The notes under the pieces were generated by a model. The model saw only the letters and a list, made by a program, of their open reading frames with translations. It was not told the DNA's origin and searched no databases. The translations under genes and the position numbers were made by a program. From Mitsuaria chitosanitabida ATCC BAA-476 = NBRC 102408 (GTDB taxonomy: Bacteria; Pseudomonadota; Gammaproteobacteria; Burkholderiales; Burkholderiaceae_C), in the NCBI RefSeq assembly GCF_001598255.1, contig NZ_BCYP01000014.1, positions 1-64,000 on the forward strand: a DNA stretch of 64,000 nt, written 5' to 3'. Every line of letters starts with the position of its first letter. Position 1 is the stretch's first letter. Shown here piece after piece: positions 19,776 to 58,153 of the stretch.

Positions 19776-21388
19776 CTCCCGGTCCCGATGTAGACCGATT
19801 GCCTGGCGTCGTCGACCGGGAAGCTCAGCAGCCGCTCCTTGTGGCCGTCGTCGTACTCGAGCGTGATCGCGTAGCCGCCGAGTCGATAGCGGCCGCGGCG
19901 GCTCGCCCCGTCGTCCCTCGCGCGCGTCCCGCTGCTGACGCCCACCGTGCCGGTGCCCGTCCCCACGGTCGCGGTGCCGGTGCGGCTGCTCCCCGTCCCG
20001 TCGCCCTGCGACGAGCCTGCCACCACCGTCCCGGTGATGGCCTGCAGGCTGCCGGTGCTCGACAAGGCGGTGAAGCTGCGCTCGAAGCGCCCGTCCTGGG
20101 TGAAGCGGATCCCGCGCGTGGACGAGGTGCCACCCGTGACCATGCTGCCGGTGAAGGCCGAGCGGGTGAAGCTGCCCGCCAGCCGCGCATCGGCGGGCCA
20201 CGGCCGCACGGCCTCGTGGCGCTCTGGCTTCCAGTCGCCGGCGGGATGCCCGTCGTCGTCCTGCGCCTGCATCTCGTAGCCCTTGCCGGCGGCCCGCCAT
20301 CGGCCCCAGCGTTGCGGCTCCAGCCGGCGCGAGGCGGCCACGTCGAGCTGGTCCGGCGGCATCTCCGTGCGCCGATAGACGCTGCCGTCCCTCAGCAGGA
20401 ATCGCACGTCCTCGTCCCAGCGGGTGCCTTGCACGGAATTGGCCTCGCCGTGGACGACGACGGCCGCCAGGTCCCGGTCGCCCAGCCCCTGGCCGGGCGC
20501 GGTCGTCACGCGCTGGATCGGGACCGCCTGGCGTGCCAGCGGTGTCTGCGGCAGCGGGGACAGGCTCAGCCCCGACGGATCGCTCACCAGCGCGGCGCCC
20601 GCCAGGTCCATCGAGAGCCGATTCAGCGAGGTCACCATGCCCCGCAGCACGATCTCGCGACCGACCCAGGGCTCGGCGTTGAACTTCAGGTCGATCCGCT
20701 GCGGCGAGCGACGATCGCCCTGCGCCAGCACGAGGTGGAAGTTCTCCGGCCGGCTCAGGTCCCGGGCCACCAGGCCCTTCACGTAGACCGGTCCCAGCCG
20801 GCGCCGCGCGGCCTCCTCCGAGATGACCAGCCAGTTCCCATGCCGCTCCGTGAGCGCGATCACTTGCGTGGGGAGCAAGACCTGGCCCCGCGCGGGCTCG
20901 GTGGCCACGGGCAGCGGCGTGGGCGGCATCACCAGCTTGGCCTGGACCAGCGCGCGCGCGACCCCTGGCGCCCGCGGGAAGCGCGCGCCGATGTCCATCC
21001 CGGGGTCCTGCAGTTCCTGCGGGAGCGCGGCGCAGGCGCGCTCGGGATCGGGGGCGTCGAGCAGCTTCTGGCGGGTGGGCGTCGCGATCCTGTCCCAAGG
21101 CGGGTCGCCGCTGCGACGCTGCATCGCGCGGGTCAGCACCACCCGCATCGGGGCGATCTGATGGCGCGTGCGCCACGCCACCCAGGCCTCGCGCAAGCGC
21201 GCGGCGCTGCTGGCGCCCAGGTCGTCGCAGGCGCCGAGCGCGGCCTCGGACACCACGTCCAGGCTGACCGCCTCGACCAGTTGATTCATGGCGGCGGGGT
21301 CCGCGGCCGGATTCCCGGCATCGGCCCCCGCATGGGCCAGTCCCACGCCCGCCGACAGGGCGAGCGCGAGCAGGCGTGGCGTGCTCAA
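19757..21388 (-). CDS. Hypothetical secreted protein
   Basis: A 543-residue protein with a probable signal peptide (LLALALSAGVGLAHA) and no domain I recognise. The first 140 residues are helical with two cysteines (LGACDDLG, ERACAALP); a middle region has beta-rich segments with VALTERHGNWLVI-like and VGREIVLRGMV patterns; residues about 420-500 are Gly/Ser/Thr-rich with GTGTGTVGVSSGT-type low complexity before a final YRLGGYAITLEYDDGHKERLLSFPVDD, a segment that resembles the terminal beta-strand pair of lipocalin-like or heat-shock HslJ-type barrels. It is the third gene of a run with a PEP-CTERM protein and an S53-like peptidase, overlapping the peptidase by ATGA, so a role in the same extracellular function is likely. 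Confidence 0.7.
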   Translation of the reverse strand: MSTPRLLALALSAGVGLAHAGADAGNPAADPAAMNQLVEAVSLDVVSEAALGACDDLGASSAARLREAWVAWRTRHQIAPMRVVLTRAMQRRSGDPPWDRIATPTRQKLLDAPDPERACAALPQELQDPGMDIGARFPRAPGVARALVQAKLVMPPTPLPVATEPARGQVLLPTQVIALTERHGNWLVISEEAARRRLGPVYVKGLVARDLSRPENFHLVLAQGDRRSPQRIDLKFNAEPWVGREIVLRGMVTSLNRLSMDLAGAALVSDPSGLSLSPLPQTPLARQAVPIQRVTTAPGQGLGDRDLAAVVVHGEANSVQGTRWDEDVRFLLRDGSVYRRTEMPPDQLDVAASRRLEPQRWGRWRAAGKGYEMQAQDDDGHPAGDWKPERHEAVRPWPADARLAGSFTRSAFTGSMVTGGTSSTRGIRFTQDGRFERSFTALSSTGSLQAITGTVVAGSSQGDGTGSSRTGTATVGTGTGTVGVSSGTRARDDGASRRGRYRLGGYAITLEYDDGHKERLLSFPVDDARQSVYIGTGSYDREK

Positions 21389-31323: not shown

Positions 31324-31357
31324 GTGCCTCGCGCCAAGGCGCTCGGAGTCGTTGAAT

Positions 31358-31380
31358 CCTCTCCCGCCGCGCGGGAGAGG
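31358..31380. repeat. REP-like hairpin A
   Basis: CCTCTCCCGC-CGC-GCGGGAGAGG, a perfect 10-bp stem, 35 bp after the TonB receptor stop. It is preceded by GTGCCTCGCGCCAAGGCGCTCGG, a second conserved element that recurs near other copies (40628 and, inverted, 32050). It may also act as the receptor gene's 3' end, though no T-run follows. Confidence 0.8.
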
Positions 31381-31438
31381 ATCTGAGCAGCACCCGTCGA
31401 CCGACTCCCGCCGTCAACGCACCTTGTTCAAACGTTCT

Positions 31439-31910
31439 CCCTCTCCCGCTCGCGGGAGAGGGTTGGGGTGAGGGTCTTCGAGCGCTCACTCAGTCCCCAT
31501 GAACGCCCCCAACCGGCCCTCCCAAGACCCGAAGATCAACGCCCGGCGCCTCCGCAGCGCCGCCACCGACGCTGAGCGGTCCCTCTGGAGCTGCCTGCGA
31601 GATCGGCGACTCGACGGCCACAAGTTCAGGCGACAGCATCCGGTGAACCGCTACATCGCGGACTTCGTCTGCTTGGAGGCGCGCTTGATCGTGGAGCTTG
31701 ATGGCGGGCAGCACTTCGACCCTGCCGGCGCCGCGGCCGATGCGGCTCGAACGGCAAAGATGGAGGCGCTGGGATTTCACGTCATGCGCTTCAGCAATCT
31801 TGAGGTGTTGCATCAGCGGGAGGCGGTGGTTTCAGTCATTCTGGGATGGCTGACTTCGGGAGATCGCGGAAGACCCTCACCCCAGCCCTCTCCCGCAGAG
31901 CGGGAGAGGG
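31439..31910 (+). mobile_element. 472-bp REP-DUF559 cassette, copy 1
   Basis: A left hairpin (stem 31439-31462 with tail GTTGGGGTGAGGGTCTTCG) and an inverted right hairpin (tail CGGAAGACCCTCACCCC at 31867-31883, stem 31886-31910) enclose a DUF559 nuclease gene starting exactly 60 bp from the left edge. Copy 2 at 40704-41175 has the same total length and the same internal distances with no insertion or deletion; the 60-bp leader differs at six positions. Nuclease gene between inverted repeats is the layout of a mobile unit, but no target-site duplication is obvious. Confidence 0.6.
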
Positions 31911-31918
31911 AGCCGTAA
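31499..31918 (+). CDS. DUF559 (Vsr-like PD-(D/E)XK) endonuclease-domain protein
   Basis: A 139-residue protein with the DUF559 core: NARRLRSAATDAERSLW, LDGHKFRRQHPVNRYIADF, and LIVELDGGQHFD. The aspartate in ADF plus the E-x-D of VELDG match the metal-binding residues of very-short-patch-repair and related PD-(D/E)XK nucleases. The last 16 residues (GRPSPQPSPAEREREP) are simply the translation of the right REP hairpin, so the stop codon lies just past the stem. About 108 of 139 positions are identical to the copy at 40764 in an ungapped hand alignment. Role unknown; DUF559 proteins have been suggested as DNA nicking or repair enzymes. Confidence 0.85.
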   Translation: MNAPNRPSQDPKINARRLRSAATDAERSLWSCLRDRRLDGHKFRRQHPVNRYIADFVCLEARLIVELDGGQHFDPAGAAADAARTAKMEALGFHVMRFSNLEVLHQREAVVSVILGWLTSGDRGRPSPQPSPAEREREP

Positions 31919-31999
31919 CCACCGAGCGCTTGGGGCGAGGACTGTTGAACCGTTCGGGCGTGCGGACGAATGCACCGGGGTGGTGATGGGCGGGGGAGC

Positions 32000-32044
32000 G
32001 CGGAAGACCCTCACCCCAGCCCTCTCCCGCTGGGCGGGAGAGGG
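32000..32044. repeat. REP-like hairpin D
   Basis: CGGAAGACCCTCACCCCAGC tail followed by CCCTCTCCCGC-TGG-GCGGGAGAGGG (32020-32044), same orientation as the right end of cassette 1. It is followed by AGCCATAGGCACCGAGCGGC, the inverted form of the second conserved REP-associated element. Confidence 0.85.
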
Positions 32045-32111
32045 AGCCATAGGCACCGAGCGGCTTGCCGCGAGGCACTTCGATGGGCCTACCGCCGTCA
32101 ACGCGCCTTGT

Positions 32112-33161
32112 TCAGACGTTCTCCCTCTCCCGCTTGCGGGAGAGGGTTGGGGTGAGGGTCTTCAGCGACGGCGCGATCAACCGCGCCGCGTCCTCGATGA
32201 TCTGCAGGTACTGCTCCGGCTCGAGGTCATACGGCAGCTCAAGCCGGAACTCGCTGACCCGCGGCAGGATCGGATCGCGGGCAAGCGCGGACAGGATCTC
32301 GTCCGCGCTGCCGATCAGGTCGGAGGCGAACAGCGTCCGCCGCTCCCCTTGCGGTGCCAGTGTCCGCGCCTGCCGGCTCTCCGCGAACTCGCGGTATCGC
32401 CGGCGCGAGGCCGCGTCCGCGCCGTCCGTCGGGACGATCACCCGGCCCAGCGCGACCCGAGGCACGCGGGCATGTCCTGCCGCGCCCCAATGCGTCAGAT
32501 AGCGGTCCAGCTGCTGAGCCTGCGCGGTGAAGAGGTCATCGCTCTGCTCCCCCCGGCTGATGTTGCCGATCAGCAGGTTAAAGCCGTGCTGCCCCGCCCA
32601 CTGCGCCGAGTACAGCGAGCCTCCGCCATACCAGAGCCGGTCGGCAAGACCTGGCGCCACCGGGTGCAGCCGCGGGCGCTGGCGACCGGCGGGGGACTCG
32701 ATCCAGGCCTCCTCGTCGCCGAAGCGCTCGTCACGGAGGTTGTCCCGCAGCCGCAGCACGCGCGCATGCGAGTAGTCGACCCCGCTCGGATCCCCGTCGT
32801 GGAAACGATCACCCAGCAGCGCGCCATACAGCGGCGCGCCGGCGCTCAGTCCGACCTGCAGCCGCGAGCGGCTCAGCGTGTCCGCGGTGGCCAGATCCTC
32901 GGCGAGCCGGAACGGGTTCTCGTAGCCCATCTGGATGACCGCGGCGCCCAGCTCGATGCGGCGGGTGCGCTGGCTCGCGGCGGCGAGGAAGGTCGAGGCC
33001 GAGGACACGCCGCGCTCCAGGTGGCGTTGCCGCACCCAGGCGCTGTCGAAGCCGAGCGCCTCCGCGCGGGTGAAGAGATTCAGCGTCGCGTCCAGCCCGG
33101 CGAAGGGATCGGACGCGACGAAGTTGCCCGGAATCAACAGGGCCAGGTGGTCGATGCTCAT
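32112..33161 (-). CDS. LLM class flavin-dependent oxidoreductase (luciferase-like)
   Basis: A 349-residue bacterial luciferase-fold enzyme that uses reduced flavin from a separate reductase. Markers: AEALGFDSAWVRQRHLERG, TRRIELGAAVIQMGYENPFRLAEDLATAD, SRSRLQVGLSAGAPLYG and LADRLWYGGGSLYSAQWAGQHGFNLLIGN, separated by loops. The substrate is not predictable alone; sharing an island with two other LLM enzymes, a GNAT, an M20 deacylase and an amino-acid-type importer suggests C-S or C-N bond oxidation. The final 16 residues (KTLTPTLSRKRERENV) come from REP hairpin E, meaning the original stop codon was lost or the repeat landed inside the gene end. Confidence 0.88.
   Translation of the reverse strand: MSIDHLALLIPGNFVASDPFAGLDATLNLFTRAEALGFDSAWVRQRHLERGVSSASTFLAAASQRTRRIELGAAVIQMGYENPFRLAEDLATADTLSRSRLQVGLSAGAPLYGALLGDRFHDGDPSGVDYSHARVLRLRDNLRDERFGDEEAWIESPAGRQRPRLHPVAPGLADRLWYGGGSLYSAQWAGQHGFNLLIGNISRGEQSDDLFTAQAQQLDRYLTHWGAAGHARVPRVALGRVIVPTDGADAASRRRYREFAESRQARTLAPQGERRTLFASDLIGSADEILSALARDPILPRVSEFRLELPYDLEPEQYLQIIEDAARLIAPSLKTLTPTLSRKRERENV
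32123..32163. repeat. REP-like hairpin E
   Basis: CCCTCTCCCGC-TT-GCGGGAGAGGG with the GTTGGGGTGAGGGTCTTC tail, same orientation as the left end of cassette 1. The 40 bp before it (ACCGCCGTCAACGCGCCTTG and on) also precede the left hairpin of cassette 1 at about 31410, so a unit of about 80 bp is duplicated. The element overlaps the 3' end of the monooxygenase gene at 32112. Confidence 0.85.
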
Positions 33162-33180
33162 GCGGTGGGCGCCTCGTGCG

Positions 33181-34221
33181 TCAGAACTTGGGCAGGCCCG
33201 GCGGGTTCGTCTGCGACTGCGCGACCGCCTCCTCGCCGGTGCCCCAGCGGGCCAGCGTCTGGCCGTACTTGCCGTTGCGGATCAAGGTGTTGGTCGCCAC
33301 CGTCAGCGCCTGCGCCAGGCCGTTGCCCTTGCGGGTGGCCACCGCGACGTCGGCCTTCAACGGCCAGCCCGCATTGACCGTGCCCACGAGCCGGGTCTTG
33401 CCCTCCTTGGCCGCGAGGTAGGCGAGCGGTCCGAACGGATTGAAGTGCGCATCGGCGCGCCCCGTCTCCAGGGCGAGCTTGGCCGCCACGATGTCGTCGA
33501 AGTACAGCAGCTGGACGGGCTTCAGATGCTGCGCCTCGTTGAGCCGGTTCCACTCCAGCAGGATGCGCTCCTGGATCGTGCCGGAGCCCGTGATGATGCG
33601 CAGCCCGGCGATGTCCTTGGGCTCCCTGATCGACTGGATCGCGCTGTCCTTCCGGACGAAGAAGCCGTGCAGGCCCAGGCGGTAGGTCGAGAAGTCGAAT
33701 TTCTGCTTGCGCTCCTCGGTCACGCCGACGTTGGAGATCACGGCGTCGTACTTGCCGGAAGCCAGGCCCAGCGGCCAGTCCGGCCAGGCGACCGACACCA
33801 GGTTGAGCTTCAGCCCCAGCGCCTCGGCGAGCTGATGGGCGTGGTCGGCGTCGGAGCCGACGATGGTCCGGGCATCGGTCGCGTAGGTGGACGCCGGTGC
33901 CACCGCCGCCGTGATGGCCACGGTGAACACGCCGGGCGTCACGAACTTGAAGTCCTTGGGCAAGGCCTGGATCGCCGCGGGATCGCGCTCGGCATGGATG
34001 CGGCCCAGCTGCGCCGGGGTGAGGTCGATCGTCCAGGAGGTCGGCACGGTCGGCACGGTCGGCGTGGGAGCGGTGATCGGCGCGGCGACGGAAGCGGTCG
34101 AGGCCTGCGCCTGGCCTTGCGGACCGGCCCAGACCGGGGCCGTCACTGCGAGCGCGGCGGCGGCCGCGACGGCGACCGATGCCCACCCGTGCCGAGCGGC
34201 GTCATGGCGTTGTTGAATCAT
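33181..34221 (-). CDS. Amino-acid-type ABC transporter substrate-binding protein
   Basis: A 346-residue periplasmic receptor with a signal peptide (VAVAAAAALAVTAPVWA) and a Thr/Pro/Ala-rich linker before the SBP_bac_3 domain. The domain has VTPGVFTVAIT, the DADHAHQLAEALGLKLNLVSVAWPDWPLGLASGKYDAVISNVGVTEERKQKFDF region (given as span, key part GLASGKYDAVISN) and ETGRADAHFNPFGPLAYLA. Of this type are receptors in clusters with NtaA/DszA-like monooxygenases. The start overlaps the stop of the permease-ATPase gene by 20 bp, so they are one transcript. Confidence 0.88.
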   Translation of the reverse strand: MIQQRHDAARHGWASVAVAAAAALAVTAPVWAGPQGQAQASTASVAAPITAPTPTVPTVPTSWTIDLTPAQLGRIHAERDPAAIQALPKDFKFVTPGVFTVAITAAVAPASTYATDARTIVGSDADHAHQLAEALGLKLNLVSVAWPDWPLGLASGKYDAVISNVGVTEERKQKFDFSTYRLGLHGFFVRKDSAIQSIREPKDIAGLRIITGSGTIQERILLEWNRLNEAQHLKPVQLLYFDDIVAAKLALETGRADAHFNPFGPLAYLAAKEGKTRLVGTVNAGWPLKADVAVATRKGNGLAQALTVATNTLIRNGKYGQTLARWGTGEEAVAQSQTNPPGLPKF

Positions 34222-36142
34222 GAGAGCTACCTTGGAGGGGGAGTGAGACGCCCGACGACGCGAGGAAGGTCGCGGTGCGTGCCTGCGTGGGGCGGTCGAA
34301 GAGCTGATCGGGATGGCCGATCTCGACGACGCGCCCCTGCTCCATGAAGACCACCTGGTCGGCGACCTCCCGGGCGAATGCGAGTTCATGGGTGACGACG
34401 ACCAGCGTCGTGCCGGAGCGGGCCAGCTCGCGGATGACGGCCAGCACCTCGCCGACCAGTTCCGGGTCGAGCGCCGAGGTCGGCTCGTCGAAGAGCAGCA
34501 CCTTGGGCTGGAGGGCCATCGCGCGCGCGATCGCGACGCGTTGCTGCTGGCCGCCGGACAGCTGGCGCGGATAGGCGTCGGCCTTGTCGGCCAGGCCGAC
34601 GCGCGCCAGCAGCAGACGTGCCCGGGCCTCGGCCTCCGCGGGGAGCACGCCGCGCACCGACACCGGCGCCTCGACGAGGTTCTGCAGCACGGTCATGTGC
34701 GGGAACAGGTGGAAGCCCTGGAAGACCATGCCGATGTCGGCGCGGCGGCGCAGGATCTCGCTCTCGCGCAGCTCGTGGAGCGTGTCGCCGATCTGGCGGT
34801 AGCCGATGAGCTCGCCATCCAGCGCGATGAAGCCCTCGTCGACGCGCTCCAGGTGGTTGATGCTGCGCAGCAGCGTCGACTTGCCCGAGCCCGACGGGCC
34901 CAGGATCACCGTCACCGCGCCGGCGGGGATCGTCAGCGACACCTCGTCCAGCACGCGCAGCGCGCCGTACTGCTTGCTCACGCCGTGCACCATGATCTCG
35001 CCGCCCGGGACCGGAGAAGCGCCCCAGGCCGCCACGGCGACGCCATCGGCCGCGGGGGTGGCCGTCCGGACGTCGCCCGATGCCGGCACCGCCTCGCGTG
35101 TCGTCACCGCCACCGAGGCGACGGAAGGCGCCGCCTCTCTCGTCGCGGCGACCTTGGCCCTGGAACGGATCGAACGGAGCGACCGGGTCGATCGCCCTCC
35201 TTCGCGCAATGCGCCGCGCGCGAAATGGCGCTCGATCTGGCGCTGGATCAGCGACAGCACGGTGAGGATCACCAGGTACCAGGCGGTGGCGACCATCAGC
35301 AGCGGGATCACCTCCAGGTTGCGGCGATAGATGACCTGGATCGTGTAGAAGAGCTCCGGCAGCGCCAGCACGTAGACGACCGAGGTGCCCTTCGTGAGCC
35401 CGATGATCGCGTTGAAGCCGTTGGGCAGGATGGACCGCATCGCCTGCGGCAGCACGATGCGCCAGGCCTGGCGCGGTCTGGACAGGCCCAGCGCGGCCGC
35501 GGCCTCGTGCTGGCCGGGGTCGACGGACAGGATGCCGCCGCGGATGATCTCGGCGGCGTAGGCGGACTGGTTCAGCGTCAGGCCCACGATCGCCGCGGCG
35601 AACGGGCTCAGCAACTGCGTCGTCGGCACGGAGAACCAGACCCAGTGGGTGAGCGGAACGCCGATGGTGACGGTCTCGTAGAGGTAGCCGAGGTTGTTGA
35701 TGAGCAGCAGCAGCACCAGTGGCGGAATGGACCGGAACAGCCAGACGTAGCCGAACGAGAAGCTCGACAGGATCGTCGACCCCGACACCCGCGCCAAGGC
35801 CAGCAGCGTCCCCAGCGAGAAGCCCAGCGCCGCGCTGAGCACCGTCAGCAGCAGCGTGCGGCCCAGCCCGACCAGCACCGCCTCGTCGAAGAACCATTCG
35901 GCGAAGACACGCCAGCCCCACTTCTCGTTGGTGATCACCGAATGCGCGATCAGCCCCAGCAGCAGGAGCGCGAGCACCGTTCCCACGGTCCGCGCCGGGT
36001 AGCGCGCGGGCACCACGCGCAGGTGGGCGTAGCGATGCGGGCCGGCGGCCGCGAGCCGCGTGGGCGAGGCGACGGCCGGCGGCGCGGCGTTGGCGCCGGC
36101 GTGGGAGGACTCGGCGCCGAAGGGAAGGACGGTGGTGTTCAT
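34202..36142 (-). CDS. Fused amino-acid ABC transporter permease and ATP-binding protein
   Basis: A 646-residue single chain combining two usually separate subunits. Residues about 55-320 are a HisM-type permease (GLGRTLLLTVLSAALGFSLG, YVWLFRSIPPLVLLLLIN, QSAYAAEIIRGGILSVDPGQ with the EAA loop, QAMRSILPNGFNAIIGLTKG). An Arg/Ala-rich linker (about 320-395) leads to a complete ATPase: Walker A GPSGSGKST, Q-loop VFQGFHLFP, signature LSGGQQQRVAIARAMA, Walker B KVLLFDEPTSALD and the switch VVVTHE. A fixed 1:1 ratio would give two ATPase and two permease domains per homodimer. The start overlaps the GNAT stop by ATGA. Confidence 0.92.
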   Translation of the reverse strand: MNTTVLPFGAESSHAGANAAPPAVASPTRLAAAGPHRYAHLRVVPARYPARTVGTVLALLLLGLIAHSVITNEKWGWRVFAEWFFDEAVLVGLGRTLLLTVLSAALGFSLGTLLALARVSGSTILSSFSFGYVWLFRSIPPLVLLLLINNLGYLYETVTIGVPLTHWVWFSVPTTQLLSPFAAAIVGLTLNQSAYAAEIIRGGILSVDPGQHEAAAALGLSRPRQAWRIVLPQAMRSILPNGFNAIIGLTKGTSVVYVLALPELFYTIQVIYRRNLEVIPLLMVATAWYLVILTVLSLIQRQIERHFARGALREGGRSTRSLRSIRSRAKVAATREAAPSVASVAVTTREAVPASGDVRTATPAADGVAVAAWGASPVPGGEIMVHGVSKQYGALRVLDEVSLTIPAGAVTVILGPSGSGKSTLLRSINHLERVDEGFIALDGELIGYRQIGDTLHELRESEILRRRADIGMVFQGFHLFPHMTVLQNLVEAPVSVRGVLPAEAEARARLLLARVGLADKADAYPRQLSGGQQQRVAIARAMALQPKVLLFDEPTSALDPELVGEVLAVIRELARSGTTLVVVTHELAFAREVADQVVFMEQGRVVEIGHPDQLFDRPTQARTATFLASSGVSLPLQGSSHDSTTP

Positions 36143-36765
36143 GCCGGGTGGGAGTGGGCCGGAGAGAGGTGGAGCGAGGTCGCGGCCGACGAAGCGGCGG
36201 ACTGCGGGAGCGACGAGGTGGCCGGCGATGCGGCGCTGATGGGCTCGGGACCGGTCGGCGCAGCGTGGCGCGGCCGGAGCAGCTTGTCGAAGGGCAAGGT
36301 GCGCAGCGCCTCGTGATCGCCGTCGAGGTCGAAGCGCGGCGTGTAGCCGTGCCGCAGGTAGAGGCCGACTGCCTCGGGCTGGCGGCAGCCGGTGGTCAGG
36401 AAGATGCGCTCATAGCCCTGGCGGACGGCGTGGGCCTCGAGCTCCGCGAGGACGCGGCCGGCCAAGCCCTGGCGGCGGAACCGGCGGTCCGTCCAGATGC
36501 GCTTGAACTCCGCCGTGCGCGGATCGGGATGTCGCTTGAAGGCGCCGCCCGCGATGGCCTCGCCGTCACGCAGCAGGAGCAGGAACTGCCCGCCGCCGGC
36601 CGGCGTGAACAGCGCCGGCGCATAGCGCTTGAGCTCGATCTCCGCGGACTCCCCGTCGATCCGGTACAGGTCCTCGTAACGGGTCTGGTACTCGACCGCG
36701 AGCGCGGCGATCAAGGGTTGCGCGCGGGGATCGGCCGGGCTGGTCTGGATGAAGGTCTCGGGCAT
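36139..36765 (-). CDS. GNAT family N-acetyltransferase
   Basis: A 208-residue acetyltransferase: a GNAT core with GGQFLLLLRDGEAIAGGAF, AEFKRIWTDRRFRRQGLAGRVLAELE (the RRQGLA loop binds acetyl-CoA) and FLTTGCRQPEAVGLYLRHGYTPRFD. The last 50 residues are a Pro/Ser/Ala tail. It begins the ABC-transporter run, overlapping the fused transporter by ATGA. In Bacillus the SnaA/SnaB acetyltransferases, encoded with an ABC importer, LLM monooxygenases and an M20 deacylase, N-acetylate S-(2-succino)cysteine or other S-modified cysteines before C-S cleavage; the same context here supports, but does not prove, that activity. Confidence 0.85.
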   Translation of the reverse strand: MPETFIQTSPADPRAQPLIAALAVEYQTRYEDLYRIDGESAEIELKRYAPALFTPAGGGQFLLLLRDGEAIAGGAFKRHPDPRTAEFKRIWTDRRFRRQGLAGRVLAELEAHAVRQGYERIFLTTGCRQPEAVGLYLRHGYTPRFDLDGDHEALRTLPFDKLLRPRHAAPTGPEPISAASPATSSLPQSAASSAATSLHLSPAHSHPA

Positions 36766-36841
36766 GACAGACTCCTTCGCGTCCACGTGGAAGGCGCTCT
36801 GCGCCGTTGCGGGCCGGACCGTCGCCGCATCGCGGGCCCGG

Positions 36842-38086
36842 TCAGGCGAGGTAGCGCTCGACCAGCCGCGACCAGTAGGTGGCGGCGGGCGCGAGCACCG
36901 CATCGTTGAAGTCGTAGCGCGGGCTGTGCAGCGGCGCGCTGTCGCCGTTCCCGATGAACAGGTAGCTGCCCGGCCGCGCCTGCAACATGTAGGCGAAGTC
37001 CTCGCTCGCCGTGCGGGGCCGGAACCCGGCCTCGACCTTGTCGGCGCCCAGCGCCTCCAGCGCGACCTCGCGGGCGAAGGCGGTCTCCCCCTCGTGGTTG
37101 AGGACGGCCGGATAGCCGAGCCGGTAGTTCACCTCGGCGGTCGCGCCGAAGCTCTCGGCCTGCGCGCGGGCCAGGGCCGGCACGCGCTGGCGCAGGACCT
37201 CGCGGACCTCCGGCCGGAAGGCGCGCGCGGTCAGCTGCAGCTCCACGCTGTCCGGGATCACGTTGGCCGCGAAGCCGCCATGGATCGAGCCCACGGTGAC
37301 CACGCCCATGTCCAGCGGATCGACGTTGCGCGCCACCACGGTCTGCAGCGCCGAGATCAGCTGCGCGCTGACGACGATGGGGTCGACGGTCTCATGCGGC
37401 TGCGCGCCGTGACCGCCCTTCCCTCGCACGATGATCTGGGCCTGGTCCACCGAGGCCATCGCTGGCCCCGAGACGCACCCCAGGTGCCCGGCGCTCACGC
37501 AGGGCCAGTTGTGCAGGCCGAAGACCGCGTCCACCGGGAACCGCTCGAACAGGCCGTCGTCGATCATGCGCTGCGCGCCGCCGCCCATCTCCTCCGCGGG
37601 CTGGAAGATCAGCTGCAGCGTGCCGTCGAAGTCGCCGTGCCGGGCCAGGTAGTGCGCGGCCGTCAGCAGCGCCGTCGTATGGCCGTCATGGCCGCAGGCG
37701 TGCATGACGCCGCCGTGGACGCTGGCGTAGGGCAGACCGGTCGCCTCGGTGATGGGCAGCGCGTCCATGTCGGCGCGCAGGCCCAGGCGCTTGCCGCCCG
37801 AGCCCCCGGCCCCACCGCTTCCCCGGCGCAGCGTGCCGACGACGCCGGTCCCGGCGATGCCCGTGGTGACCTCGTACCCCCAGTCGCGCAGCCGCTCCGC
37901 GACGAGCGCCGAGGTGCGGTGCTCCTGGAAGGCGAGTTCCGGATGCCGGTGGATATCGCGCCGCAGCGCGATGAAGGGCTCGATGTCGGCGGCGATGCGG
38001 GCGCCGATGCGCTCGGACGCCTCGCGAGCCAGGGTCTGCGCGAGCGAGGGGGCGCGTTGCAGCGCCTGGCTGTCGTCGACGCCCAT
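36842..38086 (-). CDS. M20 family metallo-amidohydrolase (N-acyl amino acid deacylase type)
   Basis: A 414-residue M20D peptidase/hippurate-hydrolase relative. Metal-site and catalytic motifs: HRHPELAFQEHRTS, LRADMDALPITE, VMHACGHDGHTTALL (Cys, His, Asp), FQPAEEMGGGAQRMIDDG (catalytic Glu pair), GLHNWP and, in the lid domain, GKGGHGAQPHETVDPI and TASEDFAYM. Enzymes of this clade remove N-acetyl or other acyl groups from amino acids. It sits one base overlapped with the NtaA-type monooxygenase (TGATG), a pairing seen in Bacillus S-modified cysteine salvage (acetylate, oxidise, deacetylate). Confidence 0.92.
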   Translation of the reverse strand: MGVDDSQALQRAPSLAQTLAREASERIGARIAADIEPFIALRRDIHRHPELAFQEHRTSALVAERLRDWGYEVTTGIAGTGVVGTLRRGSGGAGGSGGKRLGLRADMDALPITEATGLPYASVHGGVMHACGHDGHTTALLTAAHYLARHGDFDGTLQLIFQPAEEMGGGAQRMIDDGLFERFPVDAVFGLHNWPCVSAGHLGCVSGPAMASVDQAQIIVRGKGGHGAQPHETVDPIVVSAQLISALQTVVARNVDPLDMGVVTVGSIHGGFAANVIPDSVELQLTARAFRPEVREVLRQRVPALARAQAESFGATAEVNYRLGYPAVLNHEGETAFAREVALEALGADKVEAGFRPRTASEDFAYMLQARPGSYLFIGNGDSAPLHSPRYDFNDAVLAPAATYWSRLVERYLA

Positions 38087-39438
38087 CACGCGGCGGCCGC
38101 GCGGTCGGCGTCGGCTTGAACGTCGGCGCCGGCGGCGTAGCGGCTCTCCTTGCGCGGCAGGCCCAGGTGGTCTCGCAACGTCGATCCGGTGAGCTCGCGC
38201 TGGTAGCGACCCCGCGCCTCCAGCACCGGGATCACATGGGTGATGAAGTCCTGCAGCCCCTCGGCCTGCACCGGGAAGCCGAGGATGAAGCCGTCGGCCG
38301 CGCCGGCGTCGATCCACCGGATGATCTCGTCGGCCACGCGCTCCCCGCTGCCGACGAAGTTGGAGGACGGCGTGGCCGATTGCAGCGCGACCTCGCGCAG
38401 CGTCAGTCCCTTCGCCTTGGCGTCGGCCTTGATGCGGTCGGTCGTCGACTGGAAGCTGTTCTTGCCGATGTCGCCCAGGTCGGGGAACGGTCCGTCGATC
38501 GGGTACTGGCTGAAGTCGTGGTGATCGAAGAAGCGGCCCAGGTAGGCCAGCGCGTCCTCGACGCTGAGCAGCTCGCGGATGACCTGCAGCTTGGCCTGCG
38601 CCTCCGCCTCGGTCGCGCCGACGACGGGCCCGATGCCGGGATAGATCTTCACCGCGTCGGCCGGGCGGCGATGCGCGACGGCGCTGTTGCGCACCTGCTG
38701 GCGGAACTTGCGTGTCTCCTCCAGATTGGGCGAGTGGGTGAAGACGGCGTCGGCGAACTTGCCGGCCAGCGCGATGCCCGCCTCCGACGATCCGGCCTGG
38801 AAGATCACCGGCTGACCCTGCGGCGAGCGGCCGATGTTGAGCGGCCCGGCGACCTCGAAGAAGCGGCCCTTGTGGTCGAGCGTGTGCAGCTTGCCGGCCT
38901 CGAAGAACTTGCCCGTCACGCGGTCGCGGACGATGGCGTCCTCGTCCCAGCTGTCCCACAGCCCCTGCGTGACCTGCAGGTACTCGTCGGCGATCTCGTA
39001 GCGCAGCGCGTGGTCGGGATGCTCGCGGTTGTAGTTCTTCGCCGAGCCCTCGAGCGGCGTCGTCACCACGTTCCAGCCGGCGCGGCCGCCGCTGATCAGG
39101 TCCAGCGACGCGAACTGACGCGCGACCGTGAAGGGGTCGCTGTAGCTGGTGCTGACGGTCCCCGCCAGGCCGATGCGGGCCGTCGAGGTCGCCAGCGCCG
39201 AGAGGATGGTCAGGGGTTCGAACCGGTTGAGGAAGTGCGGGATGGACTTCTCGTTGATGTAGAGCCCGTCGGCGACGAAGGCGAAGGCGATGCCGGCGGC
39301 CTCGGCCTTGCGCGTGGTCTCGACGATGAAGCCGAGGTTGACGCTGGCATCGGCGGGGCCGCCGGGATGGCGCCACGAGTTCATGTGGCCGCCGGCGCCG
39401 TGCAACATGATGCCGAAGGAGATGAGCGGTTGGGTCAT
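38086..39438 (-). CDS. NtaA/SnaA/DszA family flavin-dependent monooxygenase
   Basis: A 450-residue member of the nitrilotriacetate-monooxygenase branch of luciferase-like enzymes. Diagnostic stretches: ADGLYINEKSIPHFLNRFEP, IGLAGTVSTSYSDPFTVARQFASLDLISGGRAGWNVVTT (span; key part SGGRAGWNVVTT), NYNREHPDHALRYEIADEYL, FFEVAGPLNIGRSPQGQPVI and FQAGSSEAGIALAGKFADAVF. Relatives include desulfurisation enzyme DszA and the Bacillus CmoJ/ScmK monooxygenases that open S-alkyl-N-acetylcysteines. Reduced FMN must come from a reductase not seen here. Translationally coupled to the M20 gene. Confidence 0.92.
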   Translation of the reverse strand: MTQPLISFGIMLHGAGGHMNSWRHPGGPADASVNLGFIVETTRKAEAAGIAFAFVADGLYINEKSIPHFLNRFEPLTILSALATSTARIGLAGTVSTSYSDPFTVARQFASLDLISGGRAGWNVVTTPLEGSAKNYNREHPDHALRYEIADEYLQVTQGLWDSWDEDAIVRDRVTGKFFEAGKLHTLDHKGRFFEVAGPLNIGRSPQGQPVIFQAGSSEAGIALAGKFADAVFTHSPNLEETRKFRQQVRNSAVAHRRPADAVKIYPGIGPVVGATEAEAQAKLQVIRELLSVEDALAYLGRFFDHHDFSQYPIDGPFPDLGDIGKNSFQSTTDRIKADAKAKGLTLREVALQSATPSSNFVGSGERVADEIIRWIDAGAADGFILGFPVQAEGLQDFITHVIPVLEARGRYQRELTGSTLRDHLGLPRKESRYAAGADVQADADRAAAA

Positions 39439-39532
39439 GGGTCGGGCCTCTTGGATCGGGGTCGTGGAGAGTCGTCGGGTCGGATGGGATGAGCTCGGGC
39501 GGCGTCTCGGCCGCGCGCGGGGTCGGGTGTTG

Positions 39533-40537
39533 TCAGCTCACGCGCGCGGGCGCGAGCACGCTGGCGAGCAGCTCGATGGACCTGAGCCGCGCGGCGTAGT
39601 CGGAGACCGGCATCTCGACGAGGAACTCGTCGACGCCGTGGCGCTCGTGCAGCGCGTCGAGCTCGGCGCGCACCTCCGCGGCGGTGCCGGCGACGACATG
39701 CGGCGTCAGCACCTCGGTGCGGTAGTCGGTGTCGCCGGCCGCGCGGGCGAAGTCGGCCGCGGCCTCGAGCGTGGGCAGGTTGACGCTCTTGCCGGTCGAC
39801 AGATGCAGCTTGATCATCTGCTTGGCACCGGCCAGGCGCTGGGCCTCCTCGCGGGTCTCGGCGACGAAGGCGAACAGCGCCAGCAGCGGCGCGCGGCCGC
39901 TGGCCTCCCGGTAGGCCGTCAGCGATCGTTCGACATTCAGCGGATCGCCGTTGAAGTGGCCCGCGTAGCAGAAGCCCCAACCGCGATCGGCCGCCGACTT
40001 CGCGCTGCCCGGGCTGCCGCCCAGGAGGATCCGCGACGGCGGCACCGGTGGCACGGGCCGCGCGAGCGCGCCCGCGAGCGGGTGATCGGCGGGCAGCTTG
40101 TCGTCGATGAAGGCGTCCAGGTCGGCGAGTTGCTGGTCGAAGGACGCGGGGTGGGCCCGGTCATGCAGGGCCTGCAGGGCTTTCGTCGTGGCGGGCAGCC
40201 CGCCGGGCGCCTTGCCGATGCCCAGGTCGACGCGTCCCGGCGCGAGCGCGGCCAGCACCTTGAAGACCTCGGCGACCTTGAACGGGCTGTAGTGCTGCAG
40301 CATGACGCCGCCCGAGCCCACGCGGATGCTGCTGGTGCGGGCCAGCAGGTAGGCGATGAGCACCTCGGGCGCGGAGCCGGCGAGCTGGTCGTTGCCGTGG
40401 TGCTCGTTCAGCCAGAAGCGGTGATAGCCGAGGGCCTCGGCGCGCTGGGCCAGCAAGGTGGTGCGATGCAGCGCCTCGGCGGCGGTCGATCCGGCGGGGA
40501 TCAGGCTCTTTTCGAGCAGCGAGAGCTTGTAGGTCAT
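39533..40537 (-). CDS. LLM class flavin-dependent oxidoreductase (MsnO8-like)
   Basis: A 334-residue luciferase-like oxidoreductase: SLLEKSLIPAGSTAAEAL at the start, ALGYHRFWLNEHHG, IRVGSGGVMLQHYSPFKVAEVF, LAPGRVDLGIGKAPGG and a substrate-side SPGSAKSAADRGWGFCYAGHF. The NEHHG motif is typical for this class of alkanal-type monooxygenases. First gene on this strand of the 32-40.5 kb island, 94 bp upstream of the NtaA-type gene. Alternative: an F420-independent oxidoreductase of other function; the family assignment is firm, the substrate is not. Confidence 0.92.
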   Translation of the reverse strand: MTYKLSLLEKSLIPAGSTAAEALHRTTLLAQRAEALGYHRFWLNEHHGNDQLAGSAPEVLIAYLLARTSSIRVGSGGVMLQHYSPFKVAEVFKVLAALAPGRVDLGIGKAPGGLPATTKALQALHDRAHPASFDQQLADLDAFIDDKLPADHPLAGALARPVPPVPPSRILLGGSPGSAKSAADRGWGFCYAGHFNGDPLNVERSLTAYREASGRAPLLALFAFVAETREEAQRLAGAKQMIKLHLSTGKSVNLPTLEAAADFARAAGDTDYRTEVLTPHVVAGTAAEVRAELDALHERHGVDEFLVEMPVSDYAARLRSIELLASVLAPARVS

Positions 40538-40703
40538 GGCGGCGGCCTGTGGGGGACGCGCCGATTCTGGAAGCCTGACCCGTCCGGCCCAAGCTCGTTC
40601 TGCACATGACGATATGCCGGTGGTCGAGTGCCTCGCGCCAAGGCGCTCGGTGGTCGTTGCTCCCCCCAGGTGCCTCGCGCGAAGGCGCTCGGTGCCGATG
40701 GCT

Positions 40704-41175
40704 CCCTCGCCCGCTTGCGGGAGAGGGTTGGGGAGAGGGTCTTCGAACGCTCACTAAGTCCTCATGAACGACCCCGACACCCCCTCACAAGATCCCAAGA
40801 TCAACGCCCGGAGGCTGCGAAGCGCGACCACCGCGGCGGAGCTCGCCCTCTGGCATTGCCTACGAGCCAAACGCCTCGATGGCCACAAGTTCAGGCGTCA
40901 GCATCCGGTGAACCGATACATCGTGGACTTCATCTGCATGGAGACGCGATTGATCATCGAACTCGATGGAGGACAGCACTTCGAGCCAGGCACCGCGGCG
41001 GCGGATGCGGCGCGGACCGCCAAGCTGGAGAAGCTGGGGTTCCACGTCATGCGTTTCACCAATCTTGAGGTGATGCGACAGAGGGAAGCGGTTGTCTCGA
41101 CCATCCTGGAGTGGCTGACTGCGAGAGCGCGCGGAAGACCCTCTCCCCTGCCCTCTCCCGCTGGGCGGGAGAGGG
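40704..41175 (+). mobile_element. 472-bp REP-DUF559 cassette, copy 2
   Basis: Same architecture as the cassette at 31439: left hairpin (CCCTCGCCCGC-TT-GCGGGAGAGGG, 40704-40727) with tail GTTGGGGAGAGGGTCTTCG, DUF559 gene starting at +60, inverted right hairpin (tail from 41131, stem 41151-41175). Both cassettes point the same way and are 9265 bp apart. Upstream are two copies of the GTGCCTCGCG-C-AAGGCGCTCGGTG element (40628 and 40670). Downstream (41184-41307) the inverse form recurs in decayed copies. Confidence 0.6.
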
Positions 41176-41183
41176 AGTCCTAG
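40764..41183 (+). CDS. DUF559 (Vsr-like PD-(D/E)XK) endonuclease-domain protein, second copy
   Basis: A 139-residue paralogue of the protein at 31499: NARRLRSATTAAELALW, GHKFRRQHPVNRYIVDF, LIIELDGGQHFE, with the presumed metal ligands Asp (VDF) and E-x-D (IELDG) kept. Substitutions are mostly conservative (V/I, M/L, D/E, S/T), which suggests both copies have been under selection for function. The C-terminal GRPSPLPSPAGRERES again derives from the right hairpin. Confidence 0.85.
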   Translation: MNDPDTPSQDPKINARRLRSATTAAELALWHCLRAKRLDGHKFRRQHPVNRYIVDFICMETRLIIELDGGQHFEPGTAAADAARTAKLEKLGFHVMRFTNLEVMRQREAVVSTILEWLTARARGRPSPLPSPAGRERES

Positions 41184-41307: not shown

Positions 41308-41349
41308 CCCTCTCCCGCTTGCGGGAGAGGGTTGGGGAGAGGGTCTTCG
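41308..41349. repeat. REP-like hairpin H
   Basis: CCCTCTCCCGC-TT-GCGGGAGAGGG with tail GTTGGGGAGAGGGTCTTCGG, between cassette 2 and the convergent MFS gene end at 41370. Its variant tail (GGGGAGAGGG) matches the left hairpin of cassette 2 more closely than those of cassette 1. Confidence 0.85.
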
Positions 41350-42557: not shown

Positions 42558-43010
42558 TCACGACCTCTCAACTTTGGAGGCGGGATTCTGATCGCCGGGA
42601 ACCTCGATGCCAAAAGGCATCGCGGGCGTCCCGCAAGTCACGGGAGCGAGGTCTGGGATCGGGGGGGGCGACGGACCCCGAAGACCCTCACCCCTGCCCT
42701 CTCCCGCAAGCGGGCGAGGGGGCCGCCAGCGCTCAGGCACTTGCGCGGCGGAGAGGGCTGGGCAGCACCTGACACCAAAGAGAGATGTCGAGTTCGTCGA
42801 TGCTTGGTGAGACAGGTAGTGCCTGACGCGGCGTCAACCAGAGAAAGTGGCATCCATCCTGTCTGCCGCTTTCGACCAGAAGGCTGAGCGCATCGTTGCC
42901 CCTCGCCCACGGAGTGGGAGAGGGGTTTGGGGTGAGGGCCGGTGAAGTCAGCGAGCCTGGATCTCCCTCGCCCGCTTGCGGGAGAGGGTTGGGGTGAGGG
43001 TCTTCGGGCG
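42558..43010. repeat. Gene-free 453 bp with REP-like hairpins I, J and K
   Basis: Hairpin I (tail from 42679, stem 42697-42720, CCCTCTCCCGC-AA-GCGGGCGAGGG), hairpin J (42899-42923, CCCTCGCCCAC-GGA-GTGGGAGAGGG, the GTGGG variant, tail to 42940) and hairpin K (42965-42988, tail to 43006). Hairpin K ends five bases before the livF stop. J together with its following 25 bp (GGTGAAGTCAGCGAGCC) is repeated almost exactly at 58022. Between I and J (42721-42898) no gene or known motif is seen. A G-run of eight lies at 42660-42668. Confidence 0.8.
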
Positions 43011-56886: not shown

Positions 56887-56928
56887 CCCTCTCCCGCTTG
56901 CGGGAGAGGGCTGGGGTGAGGGTCTTCG
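56887..56928. repeat. REP-like hairpin M
   Basis: CCCTCTCCCGC-TT-GCGGGAGAGGG with tail CTGGGGTGAGGGTCTTCG, between boxA and the alpha/beta hydrolase gene. May separate expression of the hydrolase from the box genes. Confidence 0.85.
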
Positions 56929-58024: not shown

Positions 58025-58153
58025 CCCTCGCCCACGGAGTGGGAGAGGGGTTTGGGGTGAGGGCCGTTGAAGTCAGCGAGCCCTGCACTCCCTCGCCCGC
58101 CTCCTCCTGCCCCCTCGCCCGCTTGCGGGAGAGGGTTGGGGTGAGGGTCTTCG
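58025..58153. repeat. REP-like hairpins O1 and O2
   Basis: O1 at 58025-58049 is CCCTCGCCCAC-GGA-GTGGGAGAGGG with tail GTTTGGGGTGAGGGCC; O2 at 58112-58135 is CCCTCGCCCGC-TT-GCGGGAGAGGG with tail to 58153. O1 plus about 30 bp after it repeats the J unit near 42900 with a single mismatch in the first 60 bp. Here an extra CTCGCCCGCCTCCTCCTGCC has been inserted before O2. Confidence 0.85.

Follow-up and report, generated by a model that had tools for sequence, protein, structure and literature searches.

DUF559 nuclease genes and their flanking hairpins as a probable cognate nuclease–repeat system in bacterial genomes

Introduction

We have analysed the first 64,000 nucleotides of contig NZ_BCYP01000014.1 of Mitsuaria chitosanitabida ATCC BAA-476 (the window), in which two short cassettes each hold a gene for a DUF559 nuclease enclosed by inverted hairpins. 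We propose that this nuclease, which is of the YcjD type and related to the Vsr and EDxHD enzymes, probably forms one cognate nuclease–repeat system with the hairpins around it, and that this system spreads in genomes. The repeat itself is already known, and the association with DUF559 suggests that this widespread repeat has a partner not recognised before; such a link was not found in the literature, as judged by the titles and abstract starts of part of the matches, with preprints lying outside the search. Labels beginning with G and L denote genomes and loci of this analysis, G000 being the window's own genome.

Results

Two cassettes of the window carry a DUF559 gene between inverted hairpins

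Both cassettes are exactly 472 bp long (copy 1, 31439-31910; copy 2, 40704-41175), and they align without gaps with 383/472 bases identical. Their leaders differ at 6/60 bases, the start codons stand at +60 in each (31499 and 40764) and the encoded proteins differ at 31/139 residues, so that the paired arrangement described in the original prediction, with each DUF559 gene lying between inverted hairpins, was borne out. Across 123 codons, comparison of the two genes gives a ratio of nonsynonymous to synonymous substitution rates (dN/dS) of 0.19, which indicates purifying selection between them.

In copy 1 the left hairpin, read from the sequence as CCCTCTCCC-GCTCGC-GGGAGAGGG (31439..31462, plus strand), is followed by a third arm, TTG-GGGTGAGGG, that points into the cassette (31463..31474, plus strand). 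The DUF559 (PF04480) gene of 139 codons comes next (31499..31918, plus strand; Pfam E 2.1e-38), and a right third arm, CTG-GGGTGAGGG (31874..31885), and an inverted right hairpin (31886..31910) lie on the minus strand. Copy 2 has the same order: a left hairpin with a single stem mismatch (CCCTCGCCC; 40704..40727, plus strand), a left third arm, TTG-GGGAGAGGG (40728..40739, plus strand), the DUF559 (PF04480) gene, again encoding 139 residues (40764..41183, plus strand; Pfam E 1.9e-39), and on the minus strand a right third arm (41139..41150) and an inverted right hairpin (41151..41175). Thus each cassette hairpin bears a second purine arm on its gene side. Both open reading frames (ORFs) pass through the right hairpin and reach their stop codon 8 bp past it, and the last residues of the proteins are therefore encoded by the repeat.

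The left boundary is sharp. The homology that copy 1 shares with a third copy on the contig sets in exactly where the left hairpin starts on its outer side, at base 31439, and the homology with a copy in a same-genus genome does the same. Beyond the left edge, copies 1 and 2 agree at 22/60 bases; beyond the right edge they agree at 29/60, including 16 of the first 20, so that in this comparison the right boundary is less sharp. The BLAST match of copy 1 with copy 2 spans 31437-31932. The third DUF559 copy (C14:69236-69511) is on this contig too, some 5 kb past the end of the window, and is likewise bracketed by hairpins. Directly after it, at the right end of the contig (about 69.7 kb; L003:1921-2006, G000:C14), a short CCGTGCT-like unit is repeated head to tail.

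The hairpin resembles a class of repeat, the intrastrand triplex motif or PIT repeat, that was reportedly described by Hoyne in 2000. Its layout, in which a third purine arm comes after the stem (CCCTCTCCC/GGGAGAGGG), matches the motif table of PMC4666352, and by this sequence match the hairpin of the window, extra purine arm included, is identified as the intrastrand triplex motif already known. The available part of that paper describes the motif for more than 260 bacterial genomes including that of Escherichia coli, reports triplex formation for a G/C-rich motif, links the motifs with instability, and states that the gene contexts of the E. coli motif never contain transposase or integrase remnants, with no mobility gene nearby. 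DUF559, ycjD and nuclease receive no mention in its main text.

Hairpins regularly flank DUF559 genes

We surveyed 299 genomes of the window's phylum, taken as Pseudomonadota; 112 of them have a PF04480 match, and this match is strong (best E <= 1e-12) in 86 genomes and only weak in 26. One strong DUF559 gene was taken from each of 69 of the 86 strong genomes, and hairpins within 300 bp of the gene were sought, one stem mismatch being allowed. Control ORFs came from forty 20-kb loci and lay more than 1.5 kb from DUF559. It can be seen that hairpins were present on both sides of 42 of the genes, on one side of 26 and on neither side of only one, as against 6, 47 and 406 of the 459 control ORFs, for which the length of the intergenic space was not matched. 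At least two hairpins stood on the occupied side in 25/26 one-sided loci, so that a second layout, with the gene beside a pair, is common. A stricter detector applied to 40 of the same loci gave 25 (both), 14 (one) and 1 (none), compared with 3, 38 and 479 of 520 controls, and the same detector gave 30, 8 and 2 for 40 further gene copies from multi-copy genomes. Over all 123 scored loci the counts were 82, 40 and 1, repeated genes included (L110-L139 partly repeat L017-L033); L111, L132, L133 and L137 were dropped from scoring since no domain was recovered in them. The expectation that DUF559 genes of this type would regularly be flanked by such hairpins therefore held, with hairpins near the gene in 68/69 genomes and on both sides in 42.

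Within the window's own genus (16 genomes) the strong DUF559 type occurs only in the window's genome and in G005. The loci of seven weak matches from this genus (L004, L011-L016) contain none of these hairpins anywhere, a single pattern having been searched. Loci of other phyla were examined as well, including 8 of the 40 plasmid records that had a DUF559 match. Matching hairpins stand on either side in Bacteroidales loci, and many of these loci have ends like AGACTCTCCCCCC; both ends are present in the three Deinococcus plasmid loci, and in two of them the inverted repeat extends past the hairpin; among three cyanobacterial plasmid loci, hairpins stand on both sides in two (one of the CCCCCAATTCTGGGGG type) and on one side in the third. 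The association of DUF559 with hairpins is therefore found in loci of four phyla. As to orientation, the 42 two-sided pairs of the window's phylum comprise 19 with both third arms pointing inward, 10 with one scorable arm pointing inward, 2 in conflict and 11 that could not be scored.

Two features of individual loci are recorded here. Some loci hold one-type arrays of many spaced hairpins beside DUF559, with about ten on one side in L047 and eight in L041. Loci L020 and L021, two 20-kb stretches of one contig of Rhodanobacter sp. C06, are identical at 20,344/20,345 positions in opposite orientation, and this arrangement is perhaps an assembly palindrome.

Repeat abundance tracks DUF559 genes rather than Y1 transposases

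In these 299 genomes we counted the hairpins of the CCYTCYCCC type. Five or more were present in 71/86 genomes with strong DUF559 and in 13/213 others (Fisher 7e-40, a test that ignores kinship). The difference is also seen within genera: G105, with four genes, has 232 hairpins and G109 and G263, with no gene, have 0, and G058 and G224, with two genes each, have 37 and 32 hairpins as against 0 in G122, which has no gene.

An explanation that would leave DUF559 as a passenger is that the hairpins are a family of repetitive extragenic palindromic (REP) elements moved by a RAYT (Y1) transposase encoded elsewhere in the genome. The original prediction had remarked on the absence of RAYT transposases, and for the window this is correct, as it holds no Y1_Tnp gene; the genome as a whole has two, both outside the window. 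One of them (G000:C1:36987-37694, L241) has a single triplex hairpin some 400 bp away, as a transposase with this role might, and no second hairpin is found in its 3.3-kb locus; the other 3.3-kb Y1_Tnp locus has none. Across the survey, at least five hairpins were present in 37/156 genomes with Y1_Tnp (RAYT family) and in 47/143 without (p 0.09), so that these transposases do not explain the repeat. When the two families were considered together, the threshold was reached in 40/47 genomes with DUF559 and no Y1_Tnp and in only 6/117 with Y1_Tnp and no DUF559. We conclude that repeat abundance depends on the DUF559 family and not on Y1 transposases, and that movement by a RAYT transposase, being largely refuted by these counts, is scarcely credible. 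Even for REPs themselves the available part of PMC3733652 gives no obvious correlation between abundance and the transposase gene, and abundance-tracking is therefore a weak criterion for a REP/RAYT system.

Fifteen genomes with strong DUF559 have few CCYTCYCCC hairpins, and some of these use another type. The DUF559 genes of G143 and G262 are bracketed by CCCCTCCCG hairpins, of which these genomes have 69 and 18, respectively, and only 2 and 0 of the common type. The CCCCTCCCG type was present in 11/18 genomes asked and in none of the window's own genome, G225 and G187. A further type, CCCTCTTT, occurs 16 times in G026, with 8 of these hairpins no more than 1.6 kb from its DUF559 gene.

Each nuclease copy is paired with its own hairpin type

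Different DUF559 copies of one genome often carry different hairpins. We found that the left arm equals the right arm in 61/70 loci where both ends were scored, compared with 18% when ends were shuffled between genomes. For 39 copies in 12 genomes the ends match in 34/39 cases for the same copy and in 22/106 comparisons between copies of one genome (within-genome permutation p <= 0.0005). The hairpin type also follows the protein, since in 68/110 cases a gene copy and the one encoding its closest protein from another genome share the same arm (random 19%). In multi-copy genomes the nearest protein elsewhere shares the arm in 35/54 cases, where 19.2+-3.1 were expected and 0/5000 within-genome shuffles reached the observed value; this nearest-neighbour measure was chosen after a linear (Mantel) protein–hairpin correlation, significant under free shuffling, had proved non-significant under within-genome shuffling. 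Hairpin and gene copy are therefore paired as cognates within genomes, and we read the matching of arms for each copy, together with arm sharing between nearest proteins, as specificity of each nuclease for its own hairpin.

These results also bear on the view that the hairpins only terminate transcription of, or insulate, a selfish gene and that the dispersed copies are unrelated to it. G/C-rich stems beside a short gene in intergenic spaces are what would be seen in that case, but the two ends match in sequence, their type tracks the protein and the same hairpins are dispersed as pairs. We regard a terminator or insulator role of this kind as very improbable.

The DUF559 protein

The products of copies 1 and 2 match Pfam PF04480 with 131 and 134.3 bits, above the curated cut-off of 20.6. 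Across 65 aligned proteins E26, W30, Q46, D55, E66, D68, G69, D81, R84 and R97 are invariant, and H72 is present in at least 90%. Among solved structures the endonuclease-like protein 3hrl is a relative (E 3.7e-37), and the mobile intron protein 3r3p, which we take to be the homing endonuclease I-Bth0305I, is a remote one (E 4.9e-6, profile A1). The protein is homologous to E. coli YcjD (b1289; NCBIfam PRK09767), with a match to NF007294 at E 1.4e-28 that is below the cut-off of that model. Padloc gave no match for copy 1 and a weak DpdF match for copy 2 (E 3e-4). The available parts of two papers place a DUF559 gene in the EDxHD homing family (PMC9403480) and describe EDxHD enzymes as metal-dependent hydrolases (PMC3943268).

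A Caulobacter DUF559 protein, VsrA, is described in the available part of PMC12907096 as Vsr-like and as triggering an SOS response if the partner methylase is absent. This would fit a maintenance nuclease, that is, a Vsr-like repair enzyme resolving trouble caused by hairpins, which genomes rich in hairpins would need and would store beside them, and the association of triplex motifs with instability (PMC4666352, in part) could be taken in the same sense. Against this, a repair enzyme needs neither matching flanking ends nor one hairpin type for each gene copy, and the available text of PMC12907096 makes no mention of a hairpin. We consider a maintenance role quite unlikely.

Gene-less doublets with unequal ends and empty sites in relatives

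The hairpins are also dispersed as pairs that enclose no gene. G143 has 24 pairs with a spacing of 61-104 bp among the 66 hairpins listed of its 69, and 18/20 of the pairs read had both third arms pointing inward by the rule used. The two ends of these doublets are unequal: 17/18 scorable doublets join an end with xxA after the stem to an end with xxG (binomial p 7e-5), the xxG ends have CT directly outside the stem in 21/21 cases, and the xxA ends (n=17) have T at -2 in 16 and C at -1 in 13. Four doublets of E. coli K-12 have GTC-stem-TTA at one end (4/4) and a different other end, and the available part of PMC4666352 describes all five E. coli doublets as inverted pairs of a type A (TTA) and a type B (CCG) motif.

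Sites lacking such elements were found in relatives. In G187 a DUF559 element with inverted ends of about 105 bp lies between two apparently convergent genes; 41 same-genus genomes were searched for this site and 28 were examined, and 11/28 have only 25-44 bp there, the others having other fillers, some of which are hairpin doublets of a different type. Pairs matching the ends of this element at about 80-98% identity recur at other places in G187 and also in G332, its nearest relative. In E. coli, the K-12 doublet between hrpB and mrcB (801-bp query) is missing from two strains (699 bp), which have about 12 bp in its place, and two further strains each lack a single hairpin, one strain at hrpB-mrcB and the other at alx-sstT, as if by deletion between repeats. 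The earlier suggestion of empty alleles thus holds as far as the elements of relatives are concerned, at the G187 site and in the E. coli strains. We also considered fabI-sapF of E. coli as an empty site of ycjD and rejected it, because three strains without ycjD (L035, L036 and L040) have genes for an efflux adaptor and a TetR regulator next to fabI instead.

Other observations concern the form of these ends. The 105-bp ends of the G187 and G332 elements (L164, L200, L202 and L203) contain, by eye, a seeming second hairpin with paired changes between copies, and these paired changes suggest selection on a folded single strand. A palindrome with arms of about 19 bp (TCACCTCATTCTGACAAGA in L037) overlaps the start of ycjD in L034 and L037 and is unlike the triplex motif.

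A gene-less doublet of 290 bp in G332 has the same ends as a full element of G187 and adjoins the same right flank, the left flank being rearranged between the two. This is what might be expected of a homing-type gene, whose nuclease would cut gene-less hairpin sites so that the gene is copied in by recombination between shared arms, the hairpins being spread by something else. The start of cassette homology at the left hairpin edge and the family's resemblance to the mobile-intron endonuclease 3r3p favour the same idea, as does the assignment, in PMC9403480 (in part), of one DUF559 gene to the EDxHD homing family. Homing would explain entry of the gene into doublets, but not the scarcity of hairpins where the gene family is absent; moreover, Y1 transposases do not explain the hairpins and no other disperser was found, Y1_Tnp being the only candidate tested. 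We therefore think a homing gene in hairpins spread by other means unlikely.

Hairpins elsewhere in the window and genome

The whole genome contains 170 exact hairpins, and the repeat is therefore not private to the region of the window; the pattern read backward, used as a control, gave 0. Within the window, a hairpin without a clear third arm lies beside copy 1 at 31356..31382 (no strand assigned). A third arm and hairpin at 32008..32044 (minus strand; hairpin at 32020) and a hairpin and third arm at 32123..32158 (plus strand) form a gene-less pair, and another hairpin with its third arm neighbours copy 2 (41308..41343, plus strand). Dispersed hairpins with third arms are found at 42685..42720 (minus strand) and, on the plus strand, at 42965..43000, 56887..56922 and 58112..58147. 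In 11 window motifs read at their edges, CT or CC stands on the outer side and TTG, CTG or CAG on the inner side, and none has GTAG at the foot of the hairpin. The repeats had been called REP-like in the original prediction; lacking this foot and corresponding to the intrastrand triplex motif, they are not classical REP elements.

Four genomes of the same class without strong DUF559 (G213, G247, G271 and G305) gave 5-19 matches to the backward control pattern, in which the purine arm comes first, and 0 to the forward pattern. These are perhaps another hairpin family.

Discussion

A nuclease–repeat system in which each copy reads its own ends

If the DUF559 nuclease and its hairpins are indeed one system, the recognition end would be the hairpin with its third purine arm, exposed in single-stranded or extruded DNA, and each nuclease copy would be tuned to its own hairpin sequence. 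The nuclease might nick or cut at such ends, and the unit that two such ends delimit might then be copied or inserted anew by host replication and repair, as the nuclease fold would hydrolyse DNA without joining it. This mobile unit would be the gene together with both its ends or a gene-less doublet acted on in trans, about 90-290 bp long and with ends that are unequal; the doublet would be the scattered triplex-motif repeat. We infer the cutting of hairpins by the DUF559 protein, the route from cutting to dispersal, the strand and the repair step; the dispersed doublets with unequal ends and the empty sites in relatives are observed. The initial reading of the cassettes as a minimal mobile element, or as a system for REP maintenance or REP cutting, is supported by the 68/69 flanked genes and by the empty sites of relatives, with cutting or moving by the nuclease as its conjectural part.

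On a broader reading, to which we give an even chance, DUF559/YcjD proteins are the missing mobilisers of the intrastrand triplex repeats. These would then be a second, independently evolved class of REP-like system, in which a stand-alone Vsr-related nuclease reads a hairpin or triplex end, the two ends are unequal and several specificities exist in parallel in one genome. These results connect the triplex hairpins of more than 260 genomes, E. coli included, with a single small family of genes, represented in E. coli by ycjD, so that the origin of the hairpins is testable in a laboratory strain. If the proposal is right, a nuclease with no joining activity spreads DNA repeats outside the familiar transposase classes, and the many natural nuclease–hairpin pairs within and between genomes would be a ready set for learning the recognition code.

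Several observations weigh against a spreading system of this kind. A 5-kb search of 16 same-genus genomes gave no usable syntenic allele for the window's cassettes among the matches listed; in the E. coli and G187/G332 comparisons neither a clear target-site duplication nor a clean joint was seen, the joints of G187/G332 being ragged. Eight close, fully scored pairs of the window's own genome (from 20 sampled stretches and the window) comprise 6 outward, 2 in the same direction and 0 inward; outward gene-less pairs are unlike the gene bracket and are therefore not simple deletion forms of the cassette. The third arms also point outward in 3/3 Deinococcus loci and in 4/4 scorable loci among 9 named Bacteroidota loci.

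The abundance data have exceptions, besides the kinship ignored by the Fisher test. Thirteen genomes have at least five hairpins without strong DUF559: G261 (147), G069 (65, in a genus where most have none), G188 (42), G064 (24), G230 (17), G158 (16), G252 (13), G033 (12), G041 (8), G100 (8), G232 (8), G246 (6) and G162 (5). G102 has a CCCCTCCCG-flanked gene and only 2 such hairpins, G204, G161 and G198 have 34, 13 and 13 CCCCTCCCG hairpins and no examined gene copy (5, 1 and 1) with this type, and G125, a counterexample, has 14 CCCTCTTT hairpins and no DUF559 match. In the within-genome Mantel test, whose result preceded our choice of the nearest-neighbour measure, 144/2000 shuffles reached the observed correlation.

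Comparison with known systems

YcjD of E. coli is a homologous protein with motif remnants after its gene. A triplex motif at 1,351,204-1,351,239 lies about 170 bp from ycjD (1,351,407-1,351,760), but the remnants that follow the gene are decayed and on one side only, with no intact bracketing pair, which is a further point against our proposal. The gene is missing at its site in many strains, the ycjD region being covered to at least 80% in 3362/5426 E. coli genomes.

Caulobacter VsrA belongs to the same domain family according to the available part of PMC12907096, and differs in that no hairpin appears there. The likeness to EDxHD homing endonucleases, with 3r3p (presumably I-Bth0305I) as the example, is a distant sequence relation; the genes described here differ in being free-standing ORFs bracketed by hairpin repeats, with no intron or intein seen, no search having been aimed at introns. 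With the intrastrand triplex or PIT repeats there is identity of sequence and architecture, down to the inverted pairing of A (TTA) and B (CCG) ends. The available part of PMC4666352 ties that motif to instability without mobility-gene remnants, whereas here it has a DUF559 partner.

There remain the REP/REPIN-RAYT systems (TnpA_REP, REPtrons), whose REPIN features are general background. As far as the available part of PMC3733652 describes them, they share with the present system a gene that lies between inverted palindromic repeats, dispersed inverted pairs that enclose no gene, and several repeat classes per genome, each with its own gene copy. They differ from it in the enzyme, which is here DUF559 and not an HUH/Y1 transposase, and in the GTAG foot, a REP feature in the same source, which is absent here, the hairpin bearing a third purine arm; nor does repeat abundance track Y1_Tnp. 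Since two defining REP/RAYT features, the GTAG foot and the HUH enzyme, fail, we do not class the system as REP/RAYT. By analogy, it may work as REP/RAYT does, with a non-HUH nuclease.

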